64,000 nucleotides of DNA from Artocarpus heterophyllus (taxonomy: Eukaryota; Streptophyta; Magnoliopsida; Rosales; Moraceae): assembly GCA_025403435.1 (NCBI GenBank), contig CM046337.1:1619501-1683500 (forward strand), given 5' to 3'. Each line of letters starts with the position of its first letter. Positions within the stretch are counted from its first letter, which is position 1. The notes below the pieces were generated by a model. The model was not told where the DNA came from and did no database searches. It worked only from the letters and a program-made list of their open reading frames with translations. This document shows, piece by piece, positions 27,131-62,200 of the stretch. The position numbers were made by a program, and so were the translations under genes.

Positions 27131-28604
<1,474 letters not shown>

Positions 28605-35858: not shown

Positions 35859-36278
<420 letters not shown>

Positions 36279-36871: not shown

Positions 36872-37309
36872 TGTAAACATAAACGAATTCAATCATGCTA
36901 TATACTTTATGCATAATAAAATCGAATTAAAACAGAAGCGTGAAAGATTTTGTACCTCCGGCCATTGCAATCTACAGTGTAATTGCATTGCTGTTGTGGA
37001 ACGTTGTACGACAAATTTGGCACTTCTATCACTCAAACACTCACATGCGATGATGCATAATCTGGATGTGAGAGAGAGGTGATAGAGACCAAACTATAAA
37101 ATTGCTTAACAAAATGAACGTGAAAATTTTGTTTTCTCTGGTACATACATTTCCTTCCATCAAGGAAATATATAGCACCCAAGAAAAATCAATTACCAGT
37201 GCTCTAATTGATGTTTTAATGAAAACATAAATAGGAGACCATTAGAATTCAAAACCATTAAAAATTGATTGGTTTCAATTGGAAAGCTTTAGAATTACAA
37301 TCGGTTACA
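36872..37309 (-). repeat. Copia C 3' LTR
   Basis: It begins TGTAAACATAAACG and ends AATCGGTTACA on the plus strand, and matches 58853-59290 at about 96%. The polypurine tract lies immediately to its right. Confidence 0.92.
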
Positions 37310-38432
37310 TTCTCCCACTTGGTCTCCATATTTAACCTTATATTCATTAAAACCAAATCTTTAGAAAACAAATACATGAATCATGACGATAATTTCTCTA
37401 AATTGTGAGTATTATCTTTCATGTATTACAATGTATTATTTCTCAGACTTTATTCCTTATATGGTAATTTAACTTTATGAATAAACCCAATGTATATTCT
37501 TGATCCTACTAAATGTGAATTTTTCTCTAATAACTTTATGCGCAAAACAAATATGAGAAAACATCACATCTGAATAAGAGTTTTATTAAGACTGTAAATT
37601 GTATGTACAAACAAATTTACATTATGGAACCAAGTCTCATCTGAACTACATGATCCTTAAATGACTTCGGTGGCATTCCTTTTGTCATAGGATCTGCGAT
37701 CATCAATTCAGTGTTTATATGCTCAATGACCACTTTATTTTCCTTAATCCGTTCCCTTATGGCTAAGTACTTAATGTCAATGTGTTTACTTCGACTGCCA
37801 CTCTTATTATTCTTAGCCATAAAAAAAAACAGTTGAATTGTCACAATATATCTTTAATGACCTAGACACAGAATCTATAATTCTAAGGCTTGACATGAAA
37901 CTCTTCAACCATACACCATGCACAGTAGCCTCAAAACAAGAAACGAACGCTACCTCCATCGTGGAAGTAGCAACCAATGTTTGCTTTCCACTCCTCCAAG
38001 ATACAGCTCCTCCGACTAGCATGAAAATATAACCTGAAGTTAATTTTTTGTATCCCTTAAACCGTTCAGCATATGTGATGGAACCAACGTTTGCTTTCCA
38101 CTCCTCCAACCTAGTGGCATGTGATGGACAATAAAATCTGTATCCCTTAGACCATTCATCATATCCAACGAAATACCCACTTATGGTCATTGGGTCTAGC
38201 TTATTTTCTTGTGGATTATAGACTCTCACTTCAGACAGGCATCCCTAAACGCGTATATGTCGCAAACTCGGTTTCCAACCTTTCCATAACTTGAACGGTG
38301 TCTTTAAGACAGCCTTAGTTGGAACTTGGTTTAATATATACACAACTGTCTTGAGAGCTTCAGTCCACAAAGACCTAAGAAGCTTTGAGTTGCTAAGCAT
38401 GCTCCGCACCATATCCAACAATGTTCGGTTTC
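37310..38432 (-). pseudogene. Copia C pol 3' part: integrase end fused to RNase H, RT deleted
   Basis: Reading the minus strand from 38432, the integrase end and linker ([16 protein letters not shown], then [17 protein letters not shown]) run to TRLEEWKA. The text then jumps to the RNase H domain ([26 protein letters not shown]; the end at 37617 with KHIDIKYLAIRERIKENKVV). The whole reverse transcriptase is missing. A 25-bp sequence ending GCTTTCCACTCCTCCAA occurs at both about 37974-37998 and 38080-38104, bracketing the deletion scar. A frame change near 37830 separates the two RNase H pieces. Confidence 0.85.
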
Positions 38433-40396
38433 TGTAACGCCCCTATATGGGGGTTAACAGTTTTTAATGAGATAAAATAAAAATAAATAATAAAAGTAAA
38501 ACCTTAAAAATAAAATTTGCCCGGGACTTAAATGAAAACTCTCAACTCAAAAATAAAAATATAAACGATAAATAAACCACAGTTTTAATGTAGCACCTTA
38601 AATTTAATAATATAAACTGTTGTCATCATCATTTTAACCCTCGACACATTGAATACAGTCACAGAAAGTAACAATTGATGCTTACATTATCATGAAGAAC
38701 ATTCTCAACAATTGAAGCAGTCCCAATGTAATATAGCTACATCACTTCCTCAACTATATTTCTCGTAGCCACCTCACACTTAGTGAGTCCTGAAAAGATA
38801 AAAATATAAGGGTATGAGCAACACTATGCTCAGTAGAGAAAGCCATTACTCACCTCTATCATTACCACATTAAAATCTGCATGGTTAGTAAGTTACATCA
38901 TATTCCAGATTATGAGGTTTATTATGATCACATCTTATGGATACCGTAGTTAATCGTTACCAAGTGTCATAATTACACATTTATACAAATATTACCAATC
39001 ATCATTGTTCCTAGGTATCCATGTTAAATTGAGTATCACTCAACTCATCGAAACCCAAATGGGCGCACTTGATCACCTTATAAACATTCCAAGGGTGTTC
39101 CGGTGAGGGGACATCAAGCCCCGAGTCCTCACCAAATCGATTCCTGTACAGTGTGTTCTGGGACTTTCAACCCAAGGAAGCGTCATCGCCTTCCCCCTAT
39201 TTTACCTTTTAGGGTATTCATGCCCAAGGACGTAACCGTCGCCCTCTTCATGTCTCACAATTTCTCTATATTGAATCATTATCAATAGAGTTAGTTTTCC
39301 TAACCATGCTTCTCAATTTATAACATGTGTCAATTTATTATGTTCCTCGCCGTACAATACAAGACGAGTCCATGTCATAGTTTCATATGTGATAATCATA
39401 TAATATCAGTTCAACATAGATATATATATATTGCGGCAAAACAATCAATTTTAATTCTATAAAAACCTCACAAAAGATGAGTAATAGAATCCCTACCTTT
39501 TAAGCTTATCAACAGTCTCTTAATCCTGGAATCAATTAACGTTAGCTCCATACTCCCTTGATCCTAAGGCGTGCATAAGGACAATTAAAACTAAAGCACA
39601 ACATACATCTACATTCATAAAATTTATTTTAATTTAATCTTAGAATTTCAAGAAATAACCACTGCCCATAGAGGTATTACAAAGTTTAACAATATAAATT
39701 TTCTGTCTAGGGCATATACACTTAGACTTCATACATATGCTCCAAAATAGCAACAAACATATACTTAGGTTTAAGAACGCAAATTTGAATAATCCTTTAG
39801 TATAAAAGAAAATTTATAAATGAAAGACTAAATTTGTTCATAAGATTCTAACCTCGGATTATGGTTAGTTGGAAGCTTGAAATGGCTTCAAAACAGGTTC
39901 CTTTACTTCGGTATGACTGAAATTCTTGCTCAAATGGAGGTGATGGTGGCTGATTTTTATGGCTGCCTTGAAGAAGTTCTCTAAGTATTTTGCTTCAGCA
40001 AAGAAATGAGAAGAAGAGTGTGGGAACCGTGGAAGATAAAGGAAGAAAAGATGAAGTCTTTGAAGAGAAGTGATAGAAACAATTATAGAGGAGACATGTT
40101 GAAGCATGTCACGGAGGAAATAAAGAAAATGAGGGTCAAGAGTAGTTGGAAAAGATATCCTTATGTCTCATCTAAAGACTTTAACACACATAATGCCAAT
40201 ATGACATTTTTGAGATTTATTAGAAGTTCTAAGGCTTTTTAGTAATCATACTAAATAAATATAGGAGAATTTTAGAAAATTTAAAAATAGATAAAAATAA
40301 ATATTATAAAATAAATTTAAATGAAGCAATTTTTTTTATACATTAAAAATTAATTTAATTACCTCAATACCCGTTAGGAGAATAACGGGTGTCACA
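38433..40396 (-). repeat. Element A 3' LTR
   Basis: It starts TGTAACGCCCCTATATGG and ends AACGGGTGTCACA on the plus strand. The part at about 38648-38810 differs from the other full LTRs of A and B and instead resembles the fragment at 62411-63543 (ATTGAAGCAGTCC, TAGCTACATCACTTCC), suggesting a mosaic. The short open frames inside recur in every LTR copy and are not supported as genes. Confidence 0.92.
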
Positions 40397-41351
40397 GCTC
40401 TACCCCCCTTAAAGAAATTTCGTCCTCGAAATTTCAATTCTAGCAATACTAGTAAAAATTTTGATTCCATTATGATTCCAATTCCGAGTCTAAACCGTTA
40501 ATGTTGTTTGTCCTCCAAATTTAAGTTATCGTATCTCCACTTATTTACTTGCATAATAAATCTTACTCCTAAATCCCTCAATGAGAGTATTTCTGACAAG
40601 TTTCAACTTATAACACCGTATAATAGTCTAAGAATCTGATCAGGCATACATATTGACCATATCATGATTCCAGTCCTTCATTGTCCAATGACCGTGATTT
40701 ACAATCACATTTAAGGAGATTGCCAGAGAAATTTTATATACTTCATCTTTAGGTTCCTTTTCCTTTTTGAGTAAGGAAAAGTCAAATATATTTGATTTCA
40801 TACCTCAACTAATAAACTAAAACATAATCATAAAACATATATCACAAACGCTTTTATTCAAAACTATACATTAAACTTACTCATAGAGATATTAAACGGA
40901 ATCTCAGAGTTGCAGACAAACCCGACATATTTTTCATTAAACAGCTATCCTCATGACACAAACATTCAACCCAAATAATATACTCATATTTCATATGAAA
41001 TATCCCCATAACTGACTTTGGTACTTCCACATAATATTAACAGAATATTACACATTACAAACATAATACGGATACGTTTCGAGAGTACAAGGCACTCCGT
41101 ATACCAGCTATCCATATCATGCATGCTTATAGGATACAAAAACATCGATAAACAAAAGATCGGACCTTAAGAAGGATGCGTTTCGAGAGCATCAAGTACT
41201 CCGTATCCAGCCATCCCGGCATTAGGCTCAATAAATCTAAAAGATTTAACAATGACGTACCACAAAAAACACAGAATACAAGGCAAACGGTTATTCGTAA
41301 CACACGAAATACGGACACACATGCCTACATGCCAAAGATAAAACAAAAAGA
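40397..41351 (-). other. Element A 3' non-coding region with PPT
   Basis: This sequence lies downstream of the LOG-like ORF. It contains the polypurine tract at the LTR border and the paired GATACGG...CTCTCGAAACG motif (about 41069-41104 and 41177-41211), the inverse of that in element B. No further ORF is seen. Confidence 0.7.
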
Positions 41352-42041
41352 TTACAGATGGAGATTCAAATCAATTGGTCGCTCCCGGCTTTCCCTTTCC
41401 CATTCAAGCTTGGATGTTGCAGTGTCGGATTCTGGATGTATGATTTGCATTTTATCTATCAATTCCTCAGCTGTTGAAGCAGTAACAAAGATTTGTCTCT
41501 CCGATTCTGTAGTGATGTTTTCTTCCACAGCGTAATCTAGAAATTTCAAAAGACCGTCATAAAAACCCTTTACGTTCAGCAGACCCAAAGGTTTGGAATA
41601 AAAGCCCAACAATTGCCCACAAGCAACTATAAATATTTCCTCAAGAGTACCTAGACCACCAGGTAATGCTATAAAAGCATCAGAATTATAGATTATGTCT
41701 TTAAAATTTTTAGGGATACTCCTGACTCCTTCTCCCTTACCTATGGCTTCCTTACAAAGGTTTCCTTCAACTGGAATATGAGGCCAAATTCTTACATCAG
41801 TAGCGTCGCTAGACCTAGCTGCTAGTGCCATATTTACCATCATTTTTATACTACCACCCCCATAGATTATGTTAATCTTCTTGTGTGCTAGGACTTGCCC
41901 TAAGTGATTTGCAGCTTCTAAATAAGCTTTATTTTTTCCAAGGCTGGAACCACAAAAGACACAAACATTCTTTATTTTCTTCGTGGACTGGGAGGTAGAC
42001 ATATTTGGTTTATAGAAGTGGTTGCTTAATGTCTGCTCCAC
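41352..42041 (-). CDS. LOG-like protein (cytokinin riboside monophosphate phosphoribohydrolase family), element A
   Basis: This is a 229-aa intronless ORF. LOG enzymes cut ribose 5'-phosphate from cytokinin nucleotides to release active cytokinin in the cytosol or nucleus. Visible here: VCVFCGSS (26-33), YGGGSIKMM (60-68), SDAFIALPGGLGTLEE (120-135, containing PGGxGTxxE) and KPLGLLNVKGFYDGLL (150-165). Plant LOGs usually carry an Arg-Lys pair about eight residues before SDAF, and here the matching stretch is KNFKDIIYN, so activity is doubtful. Plant LOG genes have several introns, so the lack of them fits capture through RNA. The family's GGGSxGLMG loop is changed to GGGSIKMMV. It differs from the element B copy by 7 residues, and both are open. 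A second Met (residue 14) could also be the start. Confidence 0.85.
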   Translation of the reverse strand: MEQTLSNHFYKPNMSTSQSTKKIKNVCVFCGSSLGKNKAYLEAANHLGQVLAHKKINIIYGGGSIKMMVNMALAARSSDATDVRIWPHIPVEGNLCKEAIGKGEGVRSIPKNFKDIIYNSDAFIALPGGLGTLEEIFIVACGQLLGFYSKPLGLLNVKGFYDGLLKFLDYAVEENITTESERQIFVTASTAEELIDKMQIIHPESDTATSKLEWERESRERPIDLNLHL

Positions 42042-42645
42042 TTAGACTTCGGGTTCTACATGAGTTTTTAAAGATGAGAAATATACAAAAAGGGCTAAAG
42101 AGATAGACAAGTAGGTAATGAAAAGGTAATCCAAAGATTTAAACAAAATCTTGTGCGGATAAGAAAGTAAGATAAGGTGATTGATAGTTTACAGAAAATT
42201 TGATTCACTTTTTGAAAAAGATTAGACTCTAATTGTATAACTTTTGACAATTGAGAACAATTCGACAGAAGACCCTCTTGACACAACTGTAGACTTTTTG
42301 ACAAATATACACCAAGTCTAGAAATTTAATATAAACGACAAATACTGTAGAACTTTTGAAATTTGAGACACAAATCTTGAAATATCTGGATAAGCTTTTC
42401 AAAATTCAAACATATTACTGTACCGTATGTGACGTGTCTGATAAGATAATATATTTTATTATATATATATTTAAGAAAATCATAAATTAAATAAGATATT
42501 AACACTTACTGTATCAATCTAATAATCACAATTATTTCAAACACAAAAGCAAATATTTTGAGTAAAAGAAAAACACAAACTGTTGAACATCAGCTAAAAC
42601 TGCTTCAAATAAGTAAAGACTAAATAACCTTTATAGAGCGATGAC
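42042..42645 (-). other. Element A spacer between the two ORFs
   Basis: AT-rich spacer of 604 bp. A 69-codon open stretch (42095-42304) is shared with element B but has no recognisable features. Confidence 0.5.
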
Positions 42646-43167
42646 TTATTCCCCATCCAGTTTTCTTATGGCTTGGCAAACAGGATCTAAAAATACCATA
42701 TTCCTGAGGCGTTGTCTTTCTGTATAAAATTTAGGCCAGAGTTTAAAAATAGCTCCTTGAACATATCCACTAGGGTGACCGTGGAGAGGAGGATGGATGC
42801 TATCCAAGTTCTCCTTTGAAAGTCCATCCCTACAAAACCTTATTTTATCCTCTCTATTCGTAGACATATAACCAGGTGAAGTACATTTACCGTTACAATT
42901 TTGTCTTCCACATTTGTTACAAGTGACCACGATGGCACGAGCTCTTCTTTTCATTGCACTACGACTGGTACCTGTTTCTGGTAAACCGACATCTTGACTA
43001 AAGTCACTCGGACGGATTTTCCCCTCTATTAACATTCTCACATCACAAGGGATGCCAAAACGCATAAGAATCCACAACCGAGTAATTCTAGCCTTGTATT
43101 TCTTTCTAAGAATCTTTTGGGAGAGTGATGGGAAATACTTTCTCAGGTGTTGGTACTTTGGGTCCAT
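42646..43167 (-). CDS. Basic Cys-rich protein resembling flexivirus nucleic-acid-binding proteins, element A
   Basis: A 173-aa ORF. Its N-terminal half is basic and hydrophobic (residues 17-40 rich in Lys, Arg, Ile, Leu). An arginine-rich stretch KRRAR (73-77), a possible nuclear signal, is followed by a compact cysteine cluster Cys83-x2-Cys86-x4-Cys91-x3-Cys95, a likely zinc site. The order small/Ser-rich, then KRRA, then a CxxC cluster recalls the Cys-rich nucleic-acid-binding proteins of carlaviruses and relatives (Viral_NABP family), several of which suppress RNA silencing. The similarity is judged by eye only. It is not a retroviral CCHC nucleocapsid (C-x2-C-x4-H-x4-C). It differs from the element B copy at 4 residues. 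Its upstream leader has been cut away by element B. Confidence 0.6.
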   Translation of the reverse strand: MDPKYQHLRKYFPSLSQKILRKKYKARITRLWILMRFGIPCDVRMLIEGKIRPSDFSQDVGLPETGTSRSAMKRRARAIVVTCNKCGRQNCNGKCTSPGYMSTNREDKIRFCRDGLSKENLDSIHPPLHGHPSGYVQGAIFKLWPKFYTERQRLRNMVFLDPVCQAIRKLDGE

Positions 43168-43379
43168 GATGAGATGAAAGAAGAGTAAATAGAAAGGAAA
43201 AATTAAGATAGTAAATTGCAGAATCCTAGAATTCCTTCTTCTTTTAGAGGAAAAGAAGAATTTCTAATGAAAAAGAAGAGGATTTGCGATTTAGAGAGAA
43301 AATAACAAATTAAGAGAGAAAAAGTGAACTCGGAGAAATAAGCTCCTATGCACAGTAAACGTATATGTAAACAATGATT
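43168..43379 (-). other. Element A leader next to the ORF, cut by element B
   Basis: CT-rich on the minus strand. It ends at the junction with element B. Its continuation is at 51579, with 14 bases missing compared with element B (46615-46628). Confidence 0.8.
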
Positions 43380-45348
43380 TGTGACACCCGTTATTCTCCT
43401 AACGGGTATTGAGGTAATTAAATTAATTTTTAATGTATAAAAAAAAAAAATTGCTTCATTTAAATTTATTTTATAATATTTATTTTTATCTATTTTTAAA
43501 TTTTCTAAAATTCTCCTATATTTATTTAGTATGATTACTAAAAAGCCTTAGAACTTCTAATAAATCTCAAAAATGTCATATTGGCATTATGTGTGTTAAA
43601 GTCTTTAGATGAGACATAAGGATATCTTTTCCAACTACTCTTGACCCTCATTTTCTTTATTTCCTCCGTGACATGCTTCAACATGTCTCCTCTATAATTG
43701 TTTCTATCACTTCTTTTCAAAGACTTCATCTTTTCTTCCTTTCTCTTCCACGGTTCCCACACTCTTCTTCTCATTTCTTTGCTGAAGCAAAATACTTAGA
43801 GAACTTCTTCAAGGCAGCCATAAAAATCAGCCACCATCACCTCCATTTGAGCAAGAATTTCAGTCATACCGAACTAAAGGAACCTGTTTTGAAGCCATTT
43901 CAAGCTTCCAACTAACCATAATCCGAGGTTAGAATCTTATGAACAAATTTAGTCTTTCATTTATAAATTTTCTTTTATACTAAAGGATTATTCAAATTTG
44001 CGTTCTTAAACCTAAGTATATGTTTGTTGCTATTTTGGAGCATATGTATGAAGTCTAAGTGTATATGCCTTAGACAGAAAATTTATATTGTTAAACTTTA
44101 TAATACCTCTATGGGCAGTGGTTATTTCTTGAAATTCTAAGATTAAATTAAAATAAATTTTATGAATGTAGTTGTATGTTGTGCTTTAGTTTTAATTGTC
44201 CTTATGCACGCCTTAGGATCAAGGGAGTATGGAGCTAACGTTAATTGATTCCAGGATTAAGAGACTGTTGATAAGCTTAAAAGGTAGGGATTCTATTACT
44301 CATCTTTTGTGAGGTTTTTATAGAATTAAAATTGATTGTTTTGCCGCAATATATATATATCTATGTTGAACTGATATTATATGATTATCACATATGAAAC
44401 TATGACATGGACTCGTCTTGTATTGTACGGCGAGGAACATAATGAATTGACACATGTTATAAATTGAGAAGCATGGTTAGGAAAACTAACTCTATTGATA
44501 ATGATTCAATATAGAGAAATTGTGAGACATGAAGAGGGCGACGGTTACGTCCTTGGGCATGAATACCCTAAAAGGTAAAATAGGGGGAAGGCGATGACGC
44601 TTCCTTGGGTTGAAAGTCCCAGAACACACTGTACAGGAATCGATTTGGTGAGGACTCGGGGCTTGATGTCCCCTCACCGGAACACCCTTGGAATGTTTAT
44701 AGGGTGATCAAGTGCGCCCATTTGGGTTTCGATGAGTTGAGTGATACTCAATTTAACATGGATACCTAGGAACAATGATGATTGATAATATTTGTATAAA
44801 TGTGTAATTATGACACTTGGTAACGATTAACTACGGTATCCATAAGATGTGATCATAATAAACCTCATAATCTGGAATATGATGTAACTTACTAACCATG
44901 CAGATTTTAATGTGGTAATGATAGAGGTGAGTAATGGCTTTCTCTACTGAGCATAGTGTTGCTCATTCCCTTATGTTTATATCTTTTCAGGACTCACTAA
45001 GTGTGAGGTGGCTACGAGAAATATAGTTGAGGAAGCGATGTAACTATATTACATTGGGACTGCTCAATTGTAAAGAATGTTCTTCATGATAATGTAAGCA
45101 TCAATTGTTACTTTCTGTGACTGTATTATAATGTGTTGAGGGTTAAAATGATGATGACAACAGTTTATATTATTAAATTTAAGGTGCTACATTAAAACTG
45201 TGGTTTATTTGTCGTTTATATTTTTATTTTTGAGTTGAGAGTTTTCATTTAAGTCCCGGGCAAATTTTAATCTTTAAGGTTTTACTTTTATTATTTATTT
45301 TTATTTTATCTCATTAAAAACTGTTAACCCCCATATAGGGGCGTTACA
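43380..45348 (+). repeat. Element B 5' LTR
   Basis: TGTGACACCCGTTATTCTCC ... GGGGCGTTACA, 1969 bp. Near-identical to 49614-51578; differences seen include GAACTAAAGG versus GAAGTAAAGG, TGCCTTAG versus TGCCCTAG, TTTCTTG versus TTTATTG, and TACGGCG versus TACAGCG. Confidence 0.93.
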
Positions 45349-46840
45349 GAATTTTTGGTATCAGAGCCTAGGTTCGGTTAACCTAGGGAGTGTAGCACCA
45401 CTTTAAAAAAAATATATATTTTTGAGATGGTTTTGAAGCTGAATTTTCATTGTCATCATCAAAATGAACCTTCACATTGATTTATACAGTCTAGAAGGAT
45501 GTAACATGGAAAGGCCATAGAATGAAAATATCAATAGTTATATGAGTACAATAATTATATAGAAGGAAAGTATTAATAGTTATGAGGGAATGATAATTAT
45601 ATGGAATGAGTTTATAAGTAGATCGCTTATGAGAGATTCGTATAATATTTGGATCTATAAGCGTATCTAATTCGTATAAACGATGAGAAATTCGTATAGA
45701 TAAGAGGATTTAAAAGCCTTTTGTCTCGTGAAAAACAATGAGAAATATAAGGCTTGATTTATTGATTTTAAAGTTTGACATAGATATGCCAAATTTTTTA
45801 TAATTGATTCAAACCTAAGTAATGATTATGTGTGGATTCGATGGAGCACATAAGTGTCAATGTCTTTTTTTAAAAGTTCTATATATTTGAGGAATATGAT
45901 ATAAGTTGGGAATCATGGTATTGAATCATGAGAGAGATAAATGTTAGACTTTTGGTCTGTTGAGACTGTGTAAAGTCTAGAATGCATGAATCTCAAAATT
46001 GGAATATTTTGTTACGTACATTGTATTTAAGTGTATCAGTGAATCTTTTGGTTACCTAAGGTTTTGTTATATGAGGAAATTATATATTGTATGAGTAGAA
46101 TTGTGGGGATTGTAGATGTTCTTAAGTAGTAACATCTAGTGTCTTTGTTCATTGATATGGTCTATGTTGGAAGACGTAAATCGTATTGATTTCAAGGTTA
46201 GTCGCATTCTAAACCCTTGGTAGTAATGATGATGAATCCATTGATAGATGTTAAGTATTATGAATAACATATGGGTGTATGCATTGTTCAATAAGGTTTT
46301 GATTAAAATAAAATTATTTGAGTTGCTGGAAGATTGTGTTGTTATGAAATGATTTTAAATATCATTCAGGAAGATCCTTGTTGTCGTTAAATTAGATTTG
46401 TTGTTCATAGTTAACTTTATGTATAGTGGGCTTTGAATTGGGTTTAAGATTCATACGAATTGGTTTTCAATTTTATGTTTGTTATTTAACTCGTTCCAAA
46501 TGTGTTAAGGCCTGAAACAACCTGACCATTTTCAACTAAGAACATTTGGGCCTAGTTCAAATCTTAAATCAGTTTGATTCACACTGTCTCTCCCACGTGG
46601 TCTCTATACGTGTCATATACAGTGGTTTAATCATTGTTTACATATACGTTTACTGTGCATAAGACCTTATTTCTCCGAGTTCACTTTTTCTCTCTTAATT
46701 TGTTATTTTTTCTCTAAATCGCAAATCCTCTTCTTTTTCATTAAAAATTCTTCTTTTCCTCTAAAAGAAGAAGGAATTCTAGGATTCTGCAATTTACTAT
46801 CTTAATTTTTCCTTTCTATTTACTCTTCTTTCATCTCATC
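45349..46840 (+). other. Element B leader: PBS and possible internal promoter
   Basis: The PBS TGGTATCAGAGC at 45356-45367 pairs with tRNA-iMet. The next 1.2 kb is AT-rich with no ORF. Near the end a G-box (CACGTG, 46594-46599) is followed by a CT-rich leader-like stretch (46665-46835) directly before the first ORF. This might be an internal promoter brought in with the cargo. That is inference only. Confidence 0.6.
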
Positions 46841-47362
46841 ATGGACCCAAAGTACCAACACCTGAGAAAGTATTTCCCATCACTCTCCCAAAAGATTCTC
46901 AGAAAGAAATACAAGGCTAGAATTACTCGGTTGTGGATTCTTATGCGTTTTGGCATCCCTTGTGATGTGAGAATGTTGATAGAGGGGAAAATCCGTCCGA
47001 GTGACTTTAGTCAAGATGTCGGTTTACCAGGAACAGGTACCAGTCGTAGTGCAATGAAAAGAAGAGCTCGTGCCATCGTGATCAGTTGTAACAAATGTGG
47101 AAGACAAAATTGTAACGGTAAATGTACTTCACCTGGTTATATGTCTACGAATAGAGAGGATAAAATAAGGTTTTGTAGAGATGGACTTTCAAAGGAGAAC
47201 TTGGATAGCATCCATCCTCCTCTCCACGGTCACCCTAGTGGATATGTTCAAGGAGCTATTTTTAAACTCTGGCCTAAATTTTATACAGAAAGACAACGCC
47301 TCAGGAATATGGTATTTCTAGATCCTGTTTGTCAAGCCATAAGAAAACTGGATAGGGAATAA
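46841..47362 (+). CDS. Basic Cys-rich protein resembling flexivirus nucleic-acid-binding proteins, element B
   Basis: A 173-aa ORF, the counterpart of 42646-43167. KRRAR (73-77) and Cys83, Cys86, Cys91 and Cys95 are all kept; differences are at residues 64, 81, 82 and 172. The upstream leader is uninterrupted, so this is the copy more likely to be expressed. The C-terminal half has HPPLHGHPSGY (125-135) and an aromatic segment FKLWPKFYTERQRLR (141-155). The family link to viral nucleic-acid-binding proteins is by motif order only. An unrelated plant zinc-binding protein remains possible. Confidence 0.6.
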   Translation: MDPKYQHLRKYFPSLSQKILRKKYKARITRLWILMRFGIPCDVRMLIEGKIRPSDFSQDVGLPGTGTSRSAMKRRARAIVISCNKCGRQNCNGKCTSPGYMSTNREDKIRFCRDGLSKENLDSIHPPLHGHPSGYVQGAIFKLWPKFYTERQRLRNMVFLDPVCQAIRKLDRE

Positions 47363-47968
47363 GTCATCGCTCTATAAAGGTTATTTAGTCTTTACTTATT
47401 TGAAGCAGTTTTAGCTGATGTTCAACAGTTTGTGTTTTTCTTTTACTCAGAATATTTGCTTTTGTGTTTGAAATAATTGTGATTATTAGATTGATACAGT
47501 AAGTGTTAATATCTTATTTAATTTATGATTTTCTTAAATATATATATATAATAAAATATATTATCTTATCAGACACGTTACATACGGTACAGTAATATGT
47601 TTGAATTTTGAAAAACTTATCCAGATATTTCAAGATTTGTGTCTCAAATTTCAAAAGTTCTACAGTATTTGTCGTTTATATTAAATTTCTAGACTTGGTG
47701 TATATTTGTCAAAAAGTCTACAGTTGTGTCAAGAGGGTCTTCTGTCGAATTGTTCTCAATTGTCAAAAGTTATACAATTAGAGTCTAATCTTTTTCAAAA
47801 AGTGAATCAGATTTTCTGTAAACTATCAATCACCTTATCTTACTTTCTTATCCGCACAAGATTTTGTTTAAATCTTTGGATTACCTTTTCATTACCTACT
47901 CGTCTATCTCTTTAGCCCTTTTTGTATATTTCTCATCTTTAAAATCTCATGTAGAACCCGAAGTCTAA
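47363..47968 (+). other. Element B spacer between the two ORFs
   Basis: 606 bp, AT-rich. The 69-codon stretch at 47706-47915 is open in both A and B but has no recognisable features. How the second ORF would be translated (splicing, own promoter, reinitiation) is not visible. Confidence 0.5.
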
Positions 47969-48658
47969 GTGGAGCAGACATTAAGCAACCACTTCTATAA
48001 ACCAAATATGTCTACCTCCCAGTCCACGAAGAAAATAAAGAATGTCAATGTCTTTTGTGGTTCCAGCTTTGGAAAAGATAAAGCTTATTTAGAAGCTGCA
48101 AATCACTTAGGGCAAGTCCTAGCACGCAAAAAGATTAACATAATCTATGGGGGTGGTAGTATAAAAATGATGGTAAATATGGCACTAGCAGCTAGGTCTA
48201 GCGACGCTACTGATGTAAGAATTTGGCCTCATATTCCAGTTGAAGGAAACCTTTGTAAGGAAGCCATAGGTAAGGGAGAAGGAGTCAGGAGTATCCCTAA
48301 AAATTTTAAAGACATAATCTATAATTCTGATGCTTTTATAGCATTACCTGGTGGTCTAGGTACTCTTGAGGAAATATTCGTAGTTGCTTGTGGGCAATTG
48401 TTGGGCTTTTATTCCAAACCTTTGGGACTGCTGAATATAAATGGTTTTTATGACGGTCTTTTGAAATTTCTAGATTACGCTGTGGAAGAAAACATCACTA
48501 CAGAATCGGAGAGACAAATCTTTGTCACTGCTTCAACAGCTGAGGAATTGATAGATAAAATGCAAATCATACATCCAGAATCCGACACTGCAACATCCAA
48601 GCTTGAATGGGAAAGGGAAAGCCGGGAGCGGCCAATTGATTTGAATCTCCATCTGTAA
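47969..48658 (+). CDS. LOG-like protein (cytokinin riboside monophosphate phosphoribohydrolase family), element B
   Basis: A 229-aa intronless ORF in the sense orientation of the element. It keeps the FCGSS nucleotide-fold start (29-33), YGGGSIKMM and the PGGLGTLEE motif (127-135). Changes from the element A copy are Cys27Asn, Leu34Phe, Asn37Asp, His53Arg, Ile138Val, Val157Ile and Lys158Asn. As in A, the Arg-Lys that normally precedes SDAF in LOG enzymes is replaced (NF). The length is slightly above plant LOGs (about 210-225 aa) because of an N-terminal extension and a charged tail (WERESRERPIDLNLHL). If active it would raise free cytokinin where expressed; if inactive it might bind nucleotides or act as a decoy subunit. 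Confidence 0.85.
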   Translation: MEQTLSNHFYKPNMSTSQSTKKIKNVNVFCGSSFGKDKAYLEAANHLGQVLARKKINIIYGGGSIKMMVNMALAARSSDATDVRIWPHIPVEGNLCKEAIGKGEGVRSIPKNFKDIIYNSDAFIALPGGLGTLEEIFVVACGQLLGFYSKPLGLLNINGFYDGLLKFLDYAVEENITTESERQIFVTASTAEELIDKMQIIHPESDTATSKLEWERESRERPIDLNLHL

Positions 48659-49613
48659 TCTTTTTGTTTTATCTTTGGCATGTAGGCATGTGTGTCCGTA
48701 TTTCGTGTGTTACGAATAACCGTTTGCCTTGTATTCTGTGTTTCTTGTGGTACGTCGTTGTTAAATCTTTTAGATTCATTGAGCCTAATGCCGGGATGGC
48801 TGGATACGGAGTACTTGATGCTCTCGAAACGCATCCTTCTTAAGGTCCGATCTTTTGTTTATCGATGTTTTTGTATCCTCTAAGCATGCATGATATGGAT
48901 AGCTGGTATACGGAGTGCCTTGTACTCTCGAAACGTATCCGTATTATGTTTGTAATGTGTAATATTCTGTTAATATTATGTGGAAGTACCAGAGTCAGTT
49001 ATGGGGATATTCCATATGAAATATGAGTATATTATTTGGGTTGAATGTTTGTTTCATGAGGATAGCTGTTTAATGAAAAATATGTCGGGTATGTTTGCAA
49101 CTCTGAGATTCCGTTTAATATCTCTATGAGTAAGTTTAATGTATAGTTTTGAATAGAAGTGTTTGTGATATATGTTTTATGATTATGTTCTAGTTTATTA
49201 GTTGAGGTATGAAATCAAATATATTTGACTTTTTCTTACTCAAAAAGGAAAAGGAACCTAAAGATGAAGTATATAAAATTTCTCTGGCAATCTCCTTAAA
49301 TGTGATTGTAAATCACAGTCCATGGACAATGAAGGACTGGAATCATGGTATGGTCAATATGTATGCCTGATCAGATTCTTAGACTATTATACGGTGTTAC
49401 AAGTTGAAACTTGTCAGAAATACTCTTATTGAGGGATTTAGGAGTAAGATTTATTATGCAAGTAAATAAGTGGAAATACGATAACTTAAATTTGGAGGAC
49501 AAACAACATTAACGGTTTAGACTCAGAATTGGAATCATAGTGGAATCATAATTTTTACTAGTATTGCTAGAATTGAAATTTCGAGGACGAAATTTCTTTA
49601 AGGGGGGTAGAGC
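48659..49613 (+). other. Element B 3' non-coding region and polypurine tract
   Basis: It contains two copies of GCTGG(T)ATACGGAGT followed by CTCTCGAAACG(C/T)ATCC (about 48799-48835 and 48902-48940), each able to fold back through GGATACG/CGTATCC-type pairing. Near the end, CGAGGACGAAATTTCTTTAA then GGGGGG and TAGAGC form the PPT region up to 49613. Confidence 0.75.
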
Positions 49614-51578
49614 TGTGACACCCGTTATTCTCCTAACGGGTATTGAGGTAATTAAATTAATTTTTAATGTATAAAAAAAATTGCTTCATTTAAATTTATT
49701 TTATAATATTTATTTTTATCTATTTTTAAATTTTCTAAAATTCTCCTATATTTATTTAGTATGATTACTAAAAAGCCTTAGAACTTCTAATAAATCTCAA
49801 AAATGTCATATTGGCATTATGTGTGTTAAAGTCTTTAGATGAGACATAAGGATATCTTTTCCAACTACTCTTGACCCTCATTTTCTTTATTTCCTCCGTG
49901 ACATGCTTCAACATGTCTCCTCTATAATTGTTTCTATCACTTCTTTTCAAAGACTTCATCTTTTCTTCCTTTCTCTTCCACGGTTCCCACACTCTTCTTC
50001 TCATTTCTTTGCTGAAGCAAAATACTTAGAGAACTTCTTCAAGGCAGCCATAAAAATCAGCCACCATCACCTCCATTTGAGCAAGAATTTCAGTCATACC
50101 GAAGTAAAGGAACCTGTTTTGAAGCCATTTCAAGCTTCCAACTAACCATAATCCGAGGTTAGAATCTTATGAACAAATTTAGTCTTTCATTTATAAATTT
50201 TCTTTTATACTAAAGGATTATTCAAATTTGCGTTCTTAAACCTAAGTATATGTTTGTTGCTATTTTGGAGCATATGTATGAAGTCTAAGTGTATATGCCC
50301 TAGACAGAAAATTTATATTGTTAAACTTTATAATACCTCTATGGGCAGTGGTTATTTATTGAAATTCTAAGATTAAATTAAAATAAATTTTATGAATGTA
50401 GTTGTATGTTGTGCTTTAGTTTTAATTGTCCTTATGCACGCCTTAGGATCAAGGGAGTATGGAGCTAACGTTAATTGATTCCAGGATTAAGAGACTGTTG
50501 ATAAGCTTAAAAGGTAGGGATTCTATTACTCATCTTTTGTGAGGTTTTTATAGAATTAAAATTGATTGTTTTGCCGCAATATATATATATCTATGTTGAA
50601 CTGATATTATATGATTATCACATATGAAACTATGACATGGACTCGTCTTGTATTGTACAGCGAGGAACATAATGAATTGACACATGTTATAAATTGAGAA
50701 GCATGGTTAGGAAAACTAACTCTATTGATAATGATTCAATATAGAGAAATTGTGAGACATGAAGAGGGCGACGGTTACGTCCTTGGGCATGAATACCCTA
50801 AAAGGTAAAATAGGGGGAAGGCGATGACGCTTCCTTGGGTTGAAAGTCCCAGAACACACTGTACAGGAATCGATTTGGTGAGGACTCGGGGCTTGATGTC
50901 CCCTCACCGGAACACCCTTGGAATGTTTATAGGGTGATCAAGTGCGCCCATTTGGGTTTCGATGAGTTGAGTGATACTCAATTTAACATGGATACCTAGG
51001 AACAATGATGATTGATAATATTTGTATAAATGTGTAATTATGACACTTGGTAACGATTAACTACGGTATCCATAAGATGTGATCATAATAAACCTCATAA
51101 TCTGGAATATGATGTAACTTACTAACCATGCAGATTTTAATGTGGTAATGATAGAGGTGAGTAATGGCTTTCTCTACTGAGCATAGTGTTGCTCATTCCC
51201 TTATGTTTATATCTTTTCAGGACTCACTAAGTGTGAGGTGGCTACGAGAAATATAGTTGAGGAAGCGATGTAACTATATTACATTGGGACTGCTCAATTG
51301 TAAAGAATGTTCTTCATGATAATGTAAGCATCAATTGTTACTTTCTGTGACTGTATTATAATGTGTTGAGGGTTAAAATGATGATGACAACAGTTTATAT
51401 TATTAAATTTAAGGTGCTACATTAAAACTGTGGTTTATTTGTCGTTTATATTTTTATTTTTGAGTTGAGAGTTTTCATTTAAGTCCCGGGCAAATTTTAA
51501 TCTTTAAGGTTTTACTTTTATTATTTATTTTTATTTTATCTCATTAAAAACTGTTAACCCCCATATAGGGGCGTTACA
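49614..51578 (+). repeat. Element B 3' LTR
   Basis: 1965 bp, TGTGACACCCG...GCGTTACA, directly after the polypurine tract and followed at 51579 by the rest of element A. Confidence 0.93.
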
Positions 51579-52843
51579 GACACGTATAGAGACCACGTGA
51601 GAGAGACAGTGTGAATCAAACTGATTTAAGATTTGAACTAGGCCCAAATGTTCTCAGTTGAAAATGGTCAGGTTGTTTCGGGCCTTAACACATTTAGAAC
51701 GAGTTAAATAACAAACATAAAATTGAAAACCAATTTGTATAAATCTTAAACCCAATTCAAAGTCCACTATAGATAAAGTTAACTATAAACAACAAATCTA
51801 ATTTAACGACAACAAGGATCTTCCTGAATGATATTTAAAATCATTTCATAACAACATAATCCTCCAGCAACTCAAATAATTTTGTTTTAATCAAAACCTT
51901 ATTGAACAATACATACACCCATATGTTATTCCTAATACTTAACATCTATCAATGGATTCATCATTATTACTACCAAGGGTTTAGAATGCGACTAACCTTG
52001 AAATCAATACGATTTACGTCTTTCAACATAGACCATATCAATGAACAAAGACACTAGATGTTACTACTTAAGAACATCTACAATCTCCATAATTCTACTC
52101 ATACAATATATAATTTCCTCATATAACAAAACCTTAGGTAACCAAAAGATTCACTGATACACTTAAATACAATGTACGTAACGAAATATTCCAATTTTGA
52201 GATTCATGCATTCTAGACTTTACACAGTCTCAACAGACCAAAAGTCTAACATTTATCTCTCTCAAGATTCAATACCATGATTCCCAACTTATATCATATT
52301 CCTCAAATAAATAGAACTTTTAAGAAAAGTTATTGACACTTATGTGCTCCTCGAATCCACACATAATCATTACTTAGGTTTGAATCAATTACGAAAAATT
52401 TGGCATATCTATGTCAAACTTTAAAATCAATAAATCAAGCCTTATATTTTTTTATTGTTTTTCACAAAATAAAAGGCTATTAAATCCTTGTATCTACACG
52501 AATTTCTCATCGTTTATACGAATTAGATATGCTTATAGATCCTAATATTATACGAATCTCTCATAAGCAATCTACTTATAAACTCATTTCATATAATTAT
52601 CATTCCCTCATAACTATTAATACTTTCCTTCTATATAATTATTGTACTCATATAACTATTAATATTTTCATTCTATGGCCTTTCCATGTTACATCCTTCT
52701 AGACTGTATAAATCAATGTGAAGGTTCATTTTGATGATGACAATGAAAATTCAGCTTCAAAACCATCTCAAAAATATATATTTTTTTAAAGTGGTGCTAC
52801 ACTCCCTAGGTTAACCGAACCTAGGCTCTGATACCAAAAATTC
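51579..52843 (-). other. Element A leader, distal part, with PBS
   Basis: Minus-strand counterpart of 45349-46614 of element B. The PBS lies at 52825-52836. The G-box equivalent (CACGTG) is at 51594-51599, now separated from the A ORFs by the 8.2 kb of element B. Confidence 0.85.
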
Positions 52844-54807
52844 TGTAACGCCCCTATATGGGGGTTAACAGTTTTTAATGAGATAAAATAAAAATAAATA
52901 ATAAAAGTAAAACCTTAAAAATAAAATTTGCCCGGGACTTAAATGAAAACTCTCAACTCAAAAATAAAAATATAAACGATAAATAAACCACAGTTTTAAT
53001 GTAGCACCTTAAATTTAATAATATAAACTGTTGTCATCATCATTTTAACCCTCAACACATTATAATACAGTCACAGAAAGTAACAATTGATGCTTACATT
53101 ATCATGAAGAACATTCTTTACAATTGAGCAGTCCCAATGTAATATAGTTACATCGCTTCCTCAACTATATTTCTCGTAGCCACCTCACACTTAGTGAGTC
53201 CTGAAAAGATATAAACATAAGGGAATGAGCAACACTATGCTCAGTAGAGAAAGCCATTACTCACCTCTATCATTACCACATTAAAATCTGCATGGTTAGT
53301 AAGTTACATCATATTCCAGATTATGAGGTTTATTATGATCACATCTTATGGATACCGTAGTTAATCGTTACCAAGTGTCATAATTACACATTTATACAAA
53401 TATTACCAATCATCATTGTTCCTAGGTATCCATGTTAAATTGAGTATCACTCAACTCATCGAAACCCAAATGGGCGCACTTGATCACCCTATAAACATTC
53501 CAAGGGTGTTCCGGTGAGGGGACATCAAGCCCCGAGTCCTCACCAAATCGATTCCTGTACAGTGTGTTCTGGGACTTTCAACCCAAGGAAGCGTCATCGC
53601 CTTCCCCCTATTTTACCTTTTAGGGTATTCATGCCCAAGGACGTAACCGTCGCCCTCTTCATGTCTCACAATTTCTCTATATTGAATCATTATCAATAGA
53701 GTTAGTTTTCCTAACCATGCTTCTCAATTTATAACATGTGTCAATTCATTATGTTCCTCGCCGTACAATACAAGACGAGTCCATGTCATAGTTTCATATG
53801 TGATAATCATATAATATCAGTTCAACATAGATATATATATATTGCGGCAAAACAATCAATTTTAATTCTATAAAAACCTCACAAAAGATGAGTAATAGAA
53901 TCCCTACCTTTTAAGCTTATCAACAGTCTCTTAATCCTGGAATCAATTAACGTTAGCTCCATACTCCCTTGATCCTAAGGCGTGCATAAGGACAATTAAA
54001 ACTAAAGCACAACATACAACTACATTCATAAAATTTATTTTAATTTAATCTTAGAATTTTAAGAAATAACCACTGCCCATAGAGGTATTACAAAGTTTAA
54101 CAATATAAATTTTCTGTCTAGGGCATATACACTTAGACTTCATACATATGCTCCAAAATAGCAACAAACATATACTTAGGTTTAAGAACGCAAATTTGAA
54201 TAATCCTTTAGTATAAAAGAAAATTTATAAATGAAAGACTAAATTTGTTCATAAGATTCTAACCTCGGATTATGGTTAGTTGGAAGCTTGAAATGGCTTC
54301 AAAACAGGTTCCTTTACTTCGGTATGACTGAAATTCTTGCTCAAATGGAGGTGATGGTGGCTGATTTTTATGGCTGCCTTGAAGAAGTTCTCTAAGTATT
54401 TTGCTTCAGCAAAGAAATGAGAAGAAGAGTGTGGGAACCGTGGAAGATAAAGGAAGAAAAGATGAAGTCTTTGAAGAGAAGTGATAGAAACAATTATAGA
54501 GGAGACATGTTGAAGCATGTCACGGAGGAAATAAAGAAAATGAGGGTCAAGAGTAGTTGGAAAAGATATCCTTATGTCTCATCTAAAGACTTTAACACAC
54601 ATAATGCCAATATGACATTTTTGAGATTTATTAGAAGTTCTAAGGCTTTTTAGTAATCATACTAAATAAATATAGGAGAATTTTAGAAAATTTAAAAATA
54701 GATAAAAATAAATATTATAAAATAAATTTAAATGAAGCAATTTTTTTTATACATTAAAAATTAATTTAATTACCTCAATACCCGTTAGGAGAATAACGGG
54801 TGTCACA
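52844..54807 (-). repeat. Element A 5' LTR
   Basis: 1964 bp, pairing with 38433-40396 and followed on the right by the target duplication GTTTC. In the region where the A 3' LTR is aberrant, this copy matches the element B LTRs (ACAATTGAGCAGTCCC). Confidence 0.93.
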
Positions 54808-55828: not shown

Positions 55829-56611
55829 CTAATATTTAGGACAATCTTTCTTTATGTGCCCCTTCTTTTTGCAAAAGAAGCACCTGGATTCCTTCTTGAT
55901 ATCAGCTTGAGCAGGGAGTTTGCCTTTTCCCTTATTCTTGGCTTGGCCTTTATTGTGCCTTTGAGTTGCCAGATGCACACTCTCTCCCGCTTCCATAATA
56001 AGCCTTCCTTCTTCCTGAACACACATGGTCATCAATTCATTGATAGACCACTTATCCTTATGTGTGTTGTAGGATATCTTGAAGGGTCCATATTGATGTA
56101 GGAGGGTGTTGAGGATGTAGTGCACAAGGAAGGTTTCAGACATCTCAACCTCAAGTGTCTTCAGCTGGGCCGCTATATCCCTCATTTGCATGATGTGCTC
56201 ATGCACACCATGAATTCCAGTAAGCTTCATGGATGAAAATTTCATTATCAAGGTGCTAGCCAAGGCTTTGTCTGATGTAACAAACTGCTCATCAATTGCC
56301 TTCATCAAAGCTTGCACATTGTTATATTGCTCCAATGAACCACGTATGCCAGCCAAGATCTTTGTCTTTATGAACATTACGCAGAGCCGATTAGATCGCT
56401 CCCATTTTTCATAACGGTCAACATCATCTAGCTGGCTGATCTCCGTAATGGCAGGTGGTTCATCCTTACGGATAGCAAAGTCAATGTCCATGATACCTAA
56501 ATGAAGAAGAATTCTCTCCTTCCACACCTTATAGTTGTCTCCCTTAAGTTCAGGAATGTCACATTGGAAATCAGAGCAACTCACAGTTTGCATAGCTGTA
56601 TAATAAAACAT
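55829..56611 (-). CDS. Copia C gag (open frame)
   Basis: A 260-codon open frame giving a Copia gag polyprotein. The N-terminal part has LKGDNYKVWKERILLHLG, the UBN2-type gag core follows, and a CCHC zinc knuckle CFFCKKKGHIKKDC stands near the C-terminus. Gag coats element RNA in virus-like particles. The frame is undamaged although the pol that follows is broken. It could in principle still act in trans, but no other part of this element is functional. A later Met (MQTVSCSDF, seventh codon) is an equally good start. Confidence 0.85.
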   Translation of the reverse strand: MFYYTAMQTVSCSDFQCDIPELKGDNYKVWKERILLHLGIMDIDFAIRKDEPPAITEISQLDDVDRYEKWERSNRLCVMFIKTKILAGIRGSLEQYNNVQALMKAIDEQFVTSDKALASTLIMKFSSMKLTGIHGVHEHIMQMRDIAAQLKTLEVEMSETFLVHYILNTLLHQYGPFKISYNTHKDKWSINELMTMCVQEEGRLIMEAGESVHLATQRHNKGQAKNKGKGKLPAQADIKKESRCFFCKKKGHIKKDCPKY

Positions 56612-56936
56612 ACATACTTATGTTACTAAATTGAGGCTACAATACTTTATGACATGTTTACCAATGTAAATCATGCATTAAAAAATATGAATCAAATGAC
56701 ATAAAAATTACCTGTGGGTTAAATTTTTAACTCAAACAGATTCATATATTCTTATAATGATACTATCAAATTATATGCCATTTTCTTAATTCCTGTGGGT
56801 AAATTAAGAAAGATAATTTGATACATCATCTTAACTAATCATACTAAATATAATAAAAATTCATGTGGGATAAAATTTATCATATTACATATGATTAATC
56901 ACAATTTAATATCTTTTTACCATATGTGATTTAAAC
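56612..56936 (-). other. Copia C leader, proximal part
   Basis: Non-coding, with a repeated theme CCTGTGGGTTAAATTT / CCTGTGGGTAAATTAAG / CATGTGGGATAAAATTT at about 56711, 56793 and 56863. It ends in the left target duplication of the hAT-like MITE. Confidence 0.6.
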
Positions 56937-58852: not shown

Positions 58853-59290
58853 TGTAAATATAAACGAATTCAATCATGCTATATACTTTATGTATAATAA
58901 AATCGAATTAAAACGGAAGCGTGAAAGATTTTGTACCTCCGGCCATTGCAATCCACAGTGTAATTGCGTTGCTGTTGTGGAACGTTGTACGACAAATTTG
59001 GCACTTCTATCACTCAAACACTCAAATGCGATGGTGCATAATCCGGATGTGAGAGAGAGGTGATAGGGACCAAACTATAAAATTGCTCAACAGAATGAAC
59101 GTGAAAATTTTGTTTTCTCTGGTACATACATTTCCTTCCATCAAGGAAATATATAGCACCTAAGAAAAATCAGTTACCAGTGTTCTAATTGATGTTTTAA
59201 TGAAAACATAAATAGGAGACCATTAGAATTCAAAACCGTTAAAAATTGATTGGTTTCAATTAGAAACCTTTAGAATTACAATCGGTTACA
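58853..59290 (-). repeat. Copia C 5' LTR
   Basis: 438 bp, pairing with 36872-37309 and followed by the target duplication TTTGG. Confidence 0.92.
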
Positions 59291-62200
59291 TTTGGATCAG
59301 AGGAGGACCTATCTCAAACCTGCTTGCCTCTTGCCTCTTGAGTAGGATTTATCTTTTAGTTGTTCTATTGCTTGTGGGAAGTTTTCAATTACTGTATATG
59401 GTCTTGTGGGTTAGTCGGATATGTTACGTGACTTGTGACTAAAAATTTAGGAAATAAGAAAACAAAGAATATAATCTCGATTCAAGACATACCTTTTATT
59501 TACAGTGGTGTTCATGTGTCTACTCTTCTTCGCTCTTGCTACTTGTTGGAGAATTGTGTTCTCTACTTCATGGTGGGCCAGATAAAGGAAATCTCTCATT
59601 TTCATGACTGTTAGTGTTAATTCTAAGAATTCTAAGTGAATTTAAAGTCCTTCATGCGCAAGAGGCATAAGCATTCACTGAATTTTCCTACCTTATCACG
59701 TTCTCTGTATATCACACCTTTTCACCTTAGAAAAGAATGTTTATTTTCTCTGTATTGTTTTATGTAGTCTCGGATTGTCGTTAATAAGATTGGAATTGTT
59801 GACAATAGTAGAAAGAATTCATTCAAGTTATAATGAACATGAGATTTTGCTTATGTCTGTTTGTTGATTTGATACACAAACTAAACATATGGTATAATTC
59901 TTCTAATTTGAATTCTTCGTCTTCATTCACCAGGACGCAAATGATGCTAGGTTTATGGAATTGTGTGCACAGATACTATGATCCAAGAACAAACATCGTA
60001 TAAAAAACTGGCGAATGAAGTATTCTCAGTTGTTAGCCATGATCCCTCTTGTTATGGCAATTTTCCACCACTATTTATATTCTCTTTAAAATGAATTCAA
60101 ACTCTAACCAATCACAATTTTGCATAAGCAACTTGTTATGTGTATCTTAGCAGCTTTACTTTGGCACGAAATATATTATGCCCAAGATTGATCCGTAATG
60201 TCTTCATGGAAGGTAATTCTTATGCATCTATCTTATACCATTTGTAGGTAGCTGTTTTGGAAAAGCTTGAGCTGTCTGATGAGTTTATTGTTAAGGAGAA
60301 AACCATTACTAGCTGTTGCTTAGTGATATAAAATATAATGCACATAGAAATATAGAATAAAAACTATGAAATTCTCTACCGTGAGCATAGAAATAGCAGG
60401 AAAAAGCCAACTATTTATCACAAGGCAATGGGATCTATTACGAAAATAATGCGATAGAAACAAAGAACGAAAACCCATAAAAGATTGACGTGGAAACTCA
60501 ATACGGGAAAAAATCACGAGCAGAGGAGAAGAAAATTATTAAACTTGTGAAGATTACAAGATGGAGGCGTTTAGGAAGGCTAAAATTCGATATTAATAAA
60601 ACCCTAACGCAATACATTATATATATATAGGTATTAACAAAACCCTATGGTCCTAAAAACATAAATTAAACAGCTTAAAAATATAAAGGTCCGTACTACG
60701 GGGCCTTGGCAAGATCAGTGGTGGGCTGTGAGATCAGGCCTCTGCTATCACCACAGATCTCATGAAAAATCTCACATTTATTTTTTACAACAATTGCTGC
60801 AACGCAAACTTTTAGGACCGTGTCAAATTGAATTCAGGTCAGTAAACTTTAATAGGATCTATGTCGGATGGCTATGTACCTAGCGCAAAAGAGGGAGTCC
60901 ATTGATGATCTTGATAAAAAATAATGAAACCATAACAACTGCTTCATACTCTTTTAATAACTTGTTTTATAGTTATATTGTCTTTTTTTGTTCATTGCTT
61001 GAATTCAATTGGATGATTATCTCAATTGTGATGTGAATCATTGCATGTAATTAAAGCCTTTTTTTTTTTACTTGATCTATTTTTCCAACTACGTTTTCTT
61101 TATACTCGTATAACGTGCATTTTCTTTGAAGTTCATACTACGAGGACGACAAGCTTGTTTGTTTCAAATGCTTCTTTTTGATCTCATGTTCTTGTCTTTG
61201 TGTCCGATTTCTTATATCTAAACTGATCTTTTATTGTCACTTTAAAGTTTATAGGATTTTTGTCCTGCTTTTTCTTTTTCTTTTTTTTAAATGATAGGAA
61301 TTTTCTTTAGTTTTTTTTTTCTTCCATAAAGAGCTTCTTCCAGTTGGCCAAAAACTGTTTTATTTTTTGACTCCCAGATTGCAAGCTTGTTGAATTAAAG
61401 TTACAATTTCTTCGTAATTTTTTCTTAGAAGTTGGGGCTTTAAACATTATCCCAACCGCTAATGCATTGTTTGTTGATCAATTAACACAAAAAAAGAATA
61501 AAAAGTTGAATTATGCAATTAACTCTTGGGTACGATTTGATCAGGCCCAAATCATTCGTTAAGGCCCCAAATAAAGATTTAGAAATTTAACTAAAGCTAA
61601 TTGAGCCCAACAATATTGATCGATTTGAAGCAGTTTGACGTGAGAAACATTGTTTATCTAGTGTCTAAAAGAGTTGAGGCTTCGTTCGGTTCGATCAATT
61701 ACAAACCAATCATATGATTCATTCGGATAATATTTGCTATCGTTGAAGGTTTGTTTTCAAGTGTTCATTCGATGGGATTAATAAACATGACCTAATAGTC
61801 GTAAGAGAAAGCATGTCAAGCGACGAACTGAAACGTAGAAAAGCCCGATTCTTGTGGTTTATCATAAATCGACATGTGTTCTACTATTACAGTTACTTCG
61901 TGCACTATCATTCCCACTTTTGTTCAGTTGAAAGCCATTACCTTTCTTTATTCTTTATATAAGGGAATGTTGTCTTCATTTGTAAGGAGGATAGAAAAAA
62001 GGCATATAGATATTCTGCAAAAATTTCTTCTCATTTATTTTTCAGTATTGATTGATTTTGCTCAGTTTAATTTTTAATTATTTTTTGAAATTACTTTAAC
62101 GATTTTCTTTGAAGATAAACAGATCCTAATAACATTGATTTGAGGGCCTAAACTTGATAATAGCATAATATTAAATTGACTCGTCGTGTTTATATTTGAT

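Follow-up and report, generated by a model that had tools for sequence, protein, structure and literature searches.

A young LTR retrotransposon of Artocarpus heterophyllus without recognisable gag-pol carries two accessory genes, both intact and from older families

Element B and its sister copy

We describe element B, a long terminal repeat (LTR) retrotransposon in a 64,000-nucleotide stretch of Artocarpus heterophyllus DNA (GenBank assembly GCA_025403435.1, contig CM046337.1, positions 1,619,501 to 1,683,500, forward strand), hereafter the window, whose numbering is used throughout. Element B occupies 43380..51578 on the plus strand. It is young, has no recognisable gag-pol, and carries two accessory genes that are intact and come from older families. 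Its 5' LTR (43380..45348, 1969 bp) runs from TGTGACACCC to GCGTTACA and its 3' LTR (49614..51578) measures 1965 bp; over 1965 aligned bases 4 substitutions separate the pair, together with a single 4-base gap (99.8% identity, K 0.0020). The primer binding site (PBS) TGGTATCAGAGC, which we take to be of the initiator-Met type, lies at 45356..45367, and the polypurine tract (PPT) AAGGGGGGTAGAGC at 49600..49613 abuts the 3' LTR. B is identified as an LTR retrotransposon by its two LTRs, which have TG...CA ends, its PBS and its PPT, with exactly the coordinates proposed in an earlier note made from the sequence alone. Two open reading frames (ORFs) lie between the LTRs in sense orientation: ORF1, of 173 residues (46841..47362), and ORF2, of 216 residues (48008..48658, counted from the first ATG at 48008 in a frame open from 47969). 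No 5-bp target-site duplication was found around B (flanks TGATT and GACAC); such duplications accompany 93.4% of the plant LTR elements surveyed in PMC6317226.

Element B is inserted within a second copy of the same element, A, which lies on the minus strand and runs from 54807 to 51579 and then from 43379 to 38433. The 5' part of A (51579..54807) includes its 5' LTR (52844-54807), and the 3' part (38433..43379) includes ORF1 (42646-43167), ORF2 (41352-42002) and the 3' LTR (38433-40396). As the earlier note had claimed, both ORFs are intact in each copy, and neither is gapped between the copies. LTR divergence is small in A also (K 0.0067), and a GAAAC target-site duplication marks its outer ends. 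At the junction 43379/51579, A is without 14 bp that B's own internal sequence has, and the LTR ends of B are intact. Because the LTRs of A and B differ less (0.5-1.0%) than their internal regions (2-3%), the divergence pattern suggests recombination between copies. A third fragment of the same LTR, approximately 98% identical, lies at 62411-63543, outside the copia element described below.

Searches for gag and pol agreed with the earlier claim that B has neither. From a list of 60 stop-to-stop stretches, 20 in sense orientation, ORF1 and ORF2 not counted, were compared with Pfam, on the sense strand only. No match at E<=0.1 was found for 19 of the 20, and the remaining stretch, mostly LTR, gave a sub-threshold Viral_Beta_CD match at chance level (E 0.073, 13.8 bits versus 23.4). 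A tblastn search of the window with the integrase ORF of L001, a locus introduced below, returned no match at E<=0.001, with no chromovirus pol among the queries. The gag-pol domains of an autonomous Ty3/gypsy element were thus not recognised in B. Its lineage was judged from cis signals: the Met-type PBS, together with LTR ends and a PPT that presumably have a chromovirus look, makes B probably of chromovirus type, with Tekay as the chromovirus lineage considered. According to PMC6317226, tRNA-Met serves as primer in most chromoviruses and in those Ty1/copia lineages that prime from a complete tRNA, and is not used by non-chromoviruses.

ORF1 and its virus-like family

ORF1 has a core (47057..47125, plus strand) in which a basic KRRAR stretch is followed by C83-x2-C86-x4-C91-x3-C95. 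Residues K73, R74, R75 and A76 and the four Cys occupy columns at least 90% conserved among 125 aligned sequences, comprising the two window copies, L001 and 122 of 125 listed proteins (P0001, P0003 and P0015 were dropped as short). At E<=0.01, Viral_NABP matches 110 and Carla_C4 107 of these 125. The Viral_NABP gathering score of 23 bits is passed by relatives such as L001 (34.2), P0149 (33.8) and P0194 (25.5), and the match spans residues 36-123 of the L001 protein, beyond the Cys core. The likeness to the Cys-rich proteins of betaflexiviruses (Viral_NABP PF05515, Carla_C4 PF01623) consists in these Pfam matches of most family members over the basic stretch and Cys-rich core.

Relatives of ORF1 are numerous. 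A single-sequence search returned 15 at 43-94% identity, 10 of which are 178-185 residues long (43-60% identity), and a profile search returned 856 proteins at E<=1. Clusters among the relatives hold up to 566 member sequences, sizes that point to a repeated gene. Among the best 120 of the 856, which were inspected, 7 name their organism, in every case a plant: Hibiscus cannabinus, Xanthoceras sorbifolium, Populus x canadensis, P. alba, Acer yangbiense, Rhamnella rubrinervis and Orobanche hederae. We take all seven to be eudicots (Rhamnella was checked). The family tree was built from 49 of the 125 listed proteins plus 3. Stretches of viral contigs yielded no relative (0 of 54), and 1 of 117 stretches of genome contigs did, namely L001. 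That ORF1 is a one-off viral insertion private to B was considered and rejected, because its relatives are numerous in other plants.

By these relatives, ORF1 is assigned to a large eudicot family that appears to be related to Cys-rich proteins of betaflexiviruses that carry a silencing-suppressor annotation. The reading of ORF1 in the earlier note as a Cys-rich protein resembling nucleic-acid-binding proteins (NABPs) holds at the level of the family; the window ORF1 taken alone scores below both Pfam cut-offs (Viral_NABP 15.9 versus 23 bits, Carla_C4 12.6 versus 20.9). Further results tell against the viral relationship. The copy in B had no match at E<=0.01 in the family scan, and the L001 relative falls under the Carla_C4 cut-off (19.8 versus 20.9). 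The profile matched protein sequences of the PDB weakly (best E 0.24). An AlphaFold model from 125 sequences, which superseded one from 18 (predicted local distance difference test score, pLDDT, 52), is moderate, with a mean pLDDT of 67.3 and a predicted template modelling score of 0.33; its fold had no match in the PDB and 12 among viral structures, none at E<=0.001 (best E 0.12), in a search that also uses sequence and is not independent of the Pfam result. In favour of the relationship, eight of these 12 weak matches are to proteins that we take to be from betaflexiviruses, and seven of the eight bear the name RNA silencing suppressor; the remaining four are an unnamed entry, a pithovirus protein and two phage proteins. 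The eight are 77-135 residues long, two being fragments, whereas ORF1 has 173 residues and lies in a retrotransposon.

Locus L001 (1-3330) is a retrotransposon contig of plant-like character that a public bacterial assembly bins as Candidatus Nomurabacteria, apparently as a contaminant. Its ORF at 104-1594 has matches to the integrase core and to an integrase zinc-binding domain; 204 bases 3' of this ORF comes the ORF1 relative, at 1799-2347. Protein P0136, whose longest contig is 10,263 bp, shows no difference from the L001 protein in 182 columns. The earlier note had held that a full-length gag-pol relative from which these ORFs are absent would argue for chance carriage; what was found answers half of this, in that an ORF1 relative does adjoin an integrase ORF. 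This arrangement speaks for a gene belonging to retrotransposons, not for cargo picked up by chance. We take the L001 integrase to be Athila-like. Because tRNA-Met primers are reportedly not used by non-chromoviruses and B has a Met-type PBS, members of the ORF1 family are probably spread over more than one lineage of retrotransposons, a conclusion drawn from one locus and that one assumed classification. Accessory ORFs of LTR elements are most frequent 3' of pol (PMC7264820), and the L001 relative, in sense, shares this position with known additional ORFs (PMC6317226). The latter survey took additional ORFs of at least 250 codons, and proteins of 173-216 residues fall below that size. In the L001 interval that separates the integrase ORF from the ORF1 relative, positions 1641-1661 form a CT-rich stretch ending in TCTCTGCAG that resembles a splice acceptor. 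Spliced expression of the relative, as for env, is possible.

ORF2, a LOG fold with an altered active site

ORF2 belongs to the LOG fold, as the earlier note had recognised: it scores 78.5 bits against the Lysine_decarbox profile (cut-off 27), and its best PDB match is At2g37210 (E 8.2e-42). Among the matches listed, the closest relative is P0016, an intact protein at 98% identity from a cluster of 8 sequences; the rest, which include Populus sequences, are 38-49% identical. In viral contigs the LOG profile matched 17 of 49 stretches, at 25-59% identity in the best segment.

The same note had described a LOG enzyme that releases active cytokinin, and this was not supported by the residues found. 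For the Corynebacterium LOG (CgLOG), Arg99 and Glu122 are proposed as catalytic and Met96, His97, Lys100, Glu125 and Trp129 as the prenyl site (PMC4979012). These residues were placed by motif position against a plant LOG, P0134, CgLOG itself lying outside the alignment. ORF2 retains Glu122 and the PGGxGTxxE nucleotide-binding motif, as PGGLGTLEE (48347..48373), and has IPKNFKDI (48293..48316) in place of the LOG motif MHxRKxxM. Thus Asn stands at the position of the catalytic Arg99, and the five prenyl-site residues are replaced, in the order above, by I, P, F, V (I in A and P0016) and G. At the Arg99 position, 113 of the 122 LOG sequences in the alignment keep Arg, and Asn is seen only in B, A and P0016. 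In a tree of 39 of 120 listed proteins plus the two window copies, from which the double-domain P0017 and P0018 were dropped, the family of B, A and P0016 sits on a stem branch of 1.17 changes per column. Since the catalytic Arg and the prenyl-site residues are replaced, canonical cytokinin-releasing activity of ORF2 is unlikely.

The ORF2 proteins of B, A and P0016 all end in IDLNLHL (48635..48655 in B), which contains the LxLxL pattern of EAR repressors. LxLxL is an EAR motif, which recruits TOPLESS co-repressors. This tail was noticed in the present analysis and is absent from the earlier note. LxLxL occurs within the last 12 residues of 91 of the 122 LOG sequences, the window copies included, versus 23.3 expected from shuffled tails, and elsewhere in 4. 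Among LOGs without a MHxRKxxM-type motif 90 of 109 have the tail, and among those with the motif 1 of 13 (Fisher P 1.2e-7); as LOG relatives share descent, the tail statistics are not independent, and the P value presumes more independence than there is. Of the 19 non-canonical LOGs without the tail, 10 are 194-200 residues long and may end early. A C-terminal 'motif 8' of LOGs has been described in a paper whose main text mentions neither EAR, LxLxL nor TOPLESS (PMC11593424).

Possible roles of the two genes, and the surroundings of the element

Selection and pairing of the two genes were assessed from A/B divergence and from the contigs that carry their relatives. A and B differ by 24 coding substitutions, 12 nonsynonymous and 20 transitions. 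With kappa 2, a nonsynonymous fraction of 0.747 is expected (P 0.0079; P 0.0067 in a first test in which ORF2 codon 14 was hand-counted as two nonsynonymous changes). With kappa 10, which is nearer the observed transition excess, the expectation is 0.692 (P 0.038), and the ratio of nonsynonymous to synonymous changes is 0.44 of expectation. This is a weak signal of constraint, and its dependence on 24 substitutions counts against it. LOG and NABP relatives (120 and 124 proteins; P0198, without a contig, was left out) also occur on contigs of identical size. For contigs of 2.5-20 kb there are two such pairs versus 0.17 expected (P 0.0135), in size classes chosen after the matches had been seen and with equal size not amounting to the same contig. 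The pairs are P0063/P0149 (8723 bp) and P0131/P0194 (3111 bp), and Pfam confirms all four proteins. Shorter contigs are near chance, with 5 matches versus 2.46 at 500-1500 bp (P 0.0995) and 0 versus 0.95 at 1500-2500 bp. A further match, in Xanthoceras, is of a shared chromosome only.

The explanation we tentatively favour, with rather less than even confidence, is that B is a non-autonomous element carrying two counter-defence-like genes and mobilised in trans. The gag-pol of an unseen helper would copy B, which would keep a two-gene accessory cassette in place of gag-pol and benefit from it. ORF1 would use its basic stretch and Cys4 core to bind RNA or DNA, and would blunt small-RNA silencing. 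ORF2, with its active site mostly lost and its phosphate-binding motif and LxLxL tail kept, would recruit TOPLESS-type co-repressors instead of making cytokinin. A broader version appears doubtful to us: eudicot LTR retrotransposons might carry a counter-defence module, made up of an RNA-virus-homologous suppressor exchanged between retrotransposon lineages and with viruses and a LOG-derived TOPLESS recruiter, with non-autonomous copies as satellites that supply the module and borrow gag-pol.

ORF1 might instead be a nucleocapsid-like RNA chaperone or packaging adapter for helper particles, its viral likeness reflecting nucleic-acid binding rather than suppression of silencing. The conserved basic stretch and Cys4 core of the family, and the finding of no gag in B, are in keeping with such a role, but the L001 relative lies 3' of pol, the commonest place for accessory ORFs (PMC7264820), and its Viral_NABP match exceeds the Cys core; we regard the adapter as unlikely. 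Fairly improbable, in our view, is that the two genes are passive cargo, picked up by chance and intact only through the youth of the copies. Low LTR divergence agrees with this. So do an ORF divergence between A and B (K 0.018 and 0.024) that does not fall below that of the other internal DNA (0.009 to 0.033) and a synonymous bias that becomes weak when the excess of transitions is taken into account. Against passive cargo, the A/B changes still lean synonymous, 10 of the 15 ORF1 relatives hold their length at 43-60% identity, P0016 keeps an intact LOG ORF, and LOG and NABP relatives coincide on equal-size contigs. An ORF2 that is an active cytokinin-releasing LOG, through which the element alters cell division, would fit the LOG fold and the retained PGGLGTLEE and Glu122. 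We consider it very improbable in view of Asn at Arg99 in all three family sequences, the five replaced prenyl-site residues and the long stem branch, and ORF2 as an ordinary active LOG was rejected.

Several observations weaken the favoured explanation of a trans-mobilised element with two counter-defence-like genes. Both copies are young, so that ORF intactness proves little. L001 is a single 3330-bp contaminant contig. A Met-type PBS fits Ty1/copia as well as chromoviruses. The canonical Lys is found in only 14 of the 122 LOG sequences, many relatives being without it, and the alignment indicates that part of the ORF2 prenyl-site change is common to relatives. P0131, the LOG of one size-matched pair, is without the LxLxL tail.

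To our knowledge, it is largely an open question whether retrotransposons of plants make proteins that act against silencing by the host. The statement in the earlier note that no family like B had been described is wrong in part. We found no report in one open-access library of virus-type NABP genes in LTR retrotransposons; LOG-bearing Ty3/gypsy elements are in print. LOG (YgdH) domains occur in Ty3/gypsy consensus elements of Citrus sinensis and C. clementina, and of P. trichocarpa without a frequency filter (PMC9289625, where Steinbauerova et al. 2011 is cited). As in B, a LOG-fold domain lies inside plant LTR elements, but those consensus sequences were built around reverse transcriptase and so contain pol, whereas no gag-pol was found in B. 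The section on them in that paper names no NABP-type domain; B has ORF1, and its LOG active site is largely lost. The same source (PMC9289625) describes orchid Ty3/gypsy elements with an ORF for an AlkB N6-methyladenosine demethylase, likewise an accessory ORF kept by an LTR retrotransposon. These elements differ from B in their 25 kb length, their gag-pol, the protein concerned and the in vitro activity shown by its authors, who note that AlkB domains occur in Betaflexiviridae too. A repeated family of plant genes that is related to silencing suppressors of viruses, and has members in a gag-pol-less element and beside an integrase, makes the anti-silencing question testable and raises that of the direction of transfer between viruses and retrotransposons. 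A second concrete and cheaply testable prediction comes from ORF2, in which an LxLxL tail is joined to a LOG fold whose active site is damaged.

Repeats of 440 bp, 96% identical, at 36872-37311 and 58853-59292 were read as the LTRs of a copia element, and a copia-type gag lies at 55832-56617 on the minus strand. A three-level nesting is probable, in which a Ty1/copia element (36872-59292) holds A, and A holds B. Copy A interrupts an integrase-like reading frame, recognised by eye, of this presumed copia element. An inverted pair, 92% alike, lies at 28190-28603 and 35860-36273, its first member within a histone H3-like ORF (by eye). A UDP-glycosyltransferase-like ORF, also recognised by eye, lies at 5474-6994 and has partial duplicates at 14621-15426; a repeat of some 2.2 kb occurs at 9671-14231.

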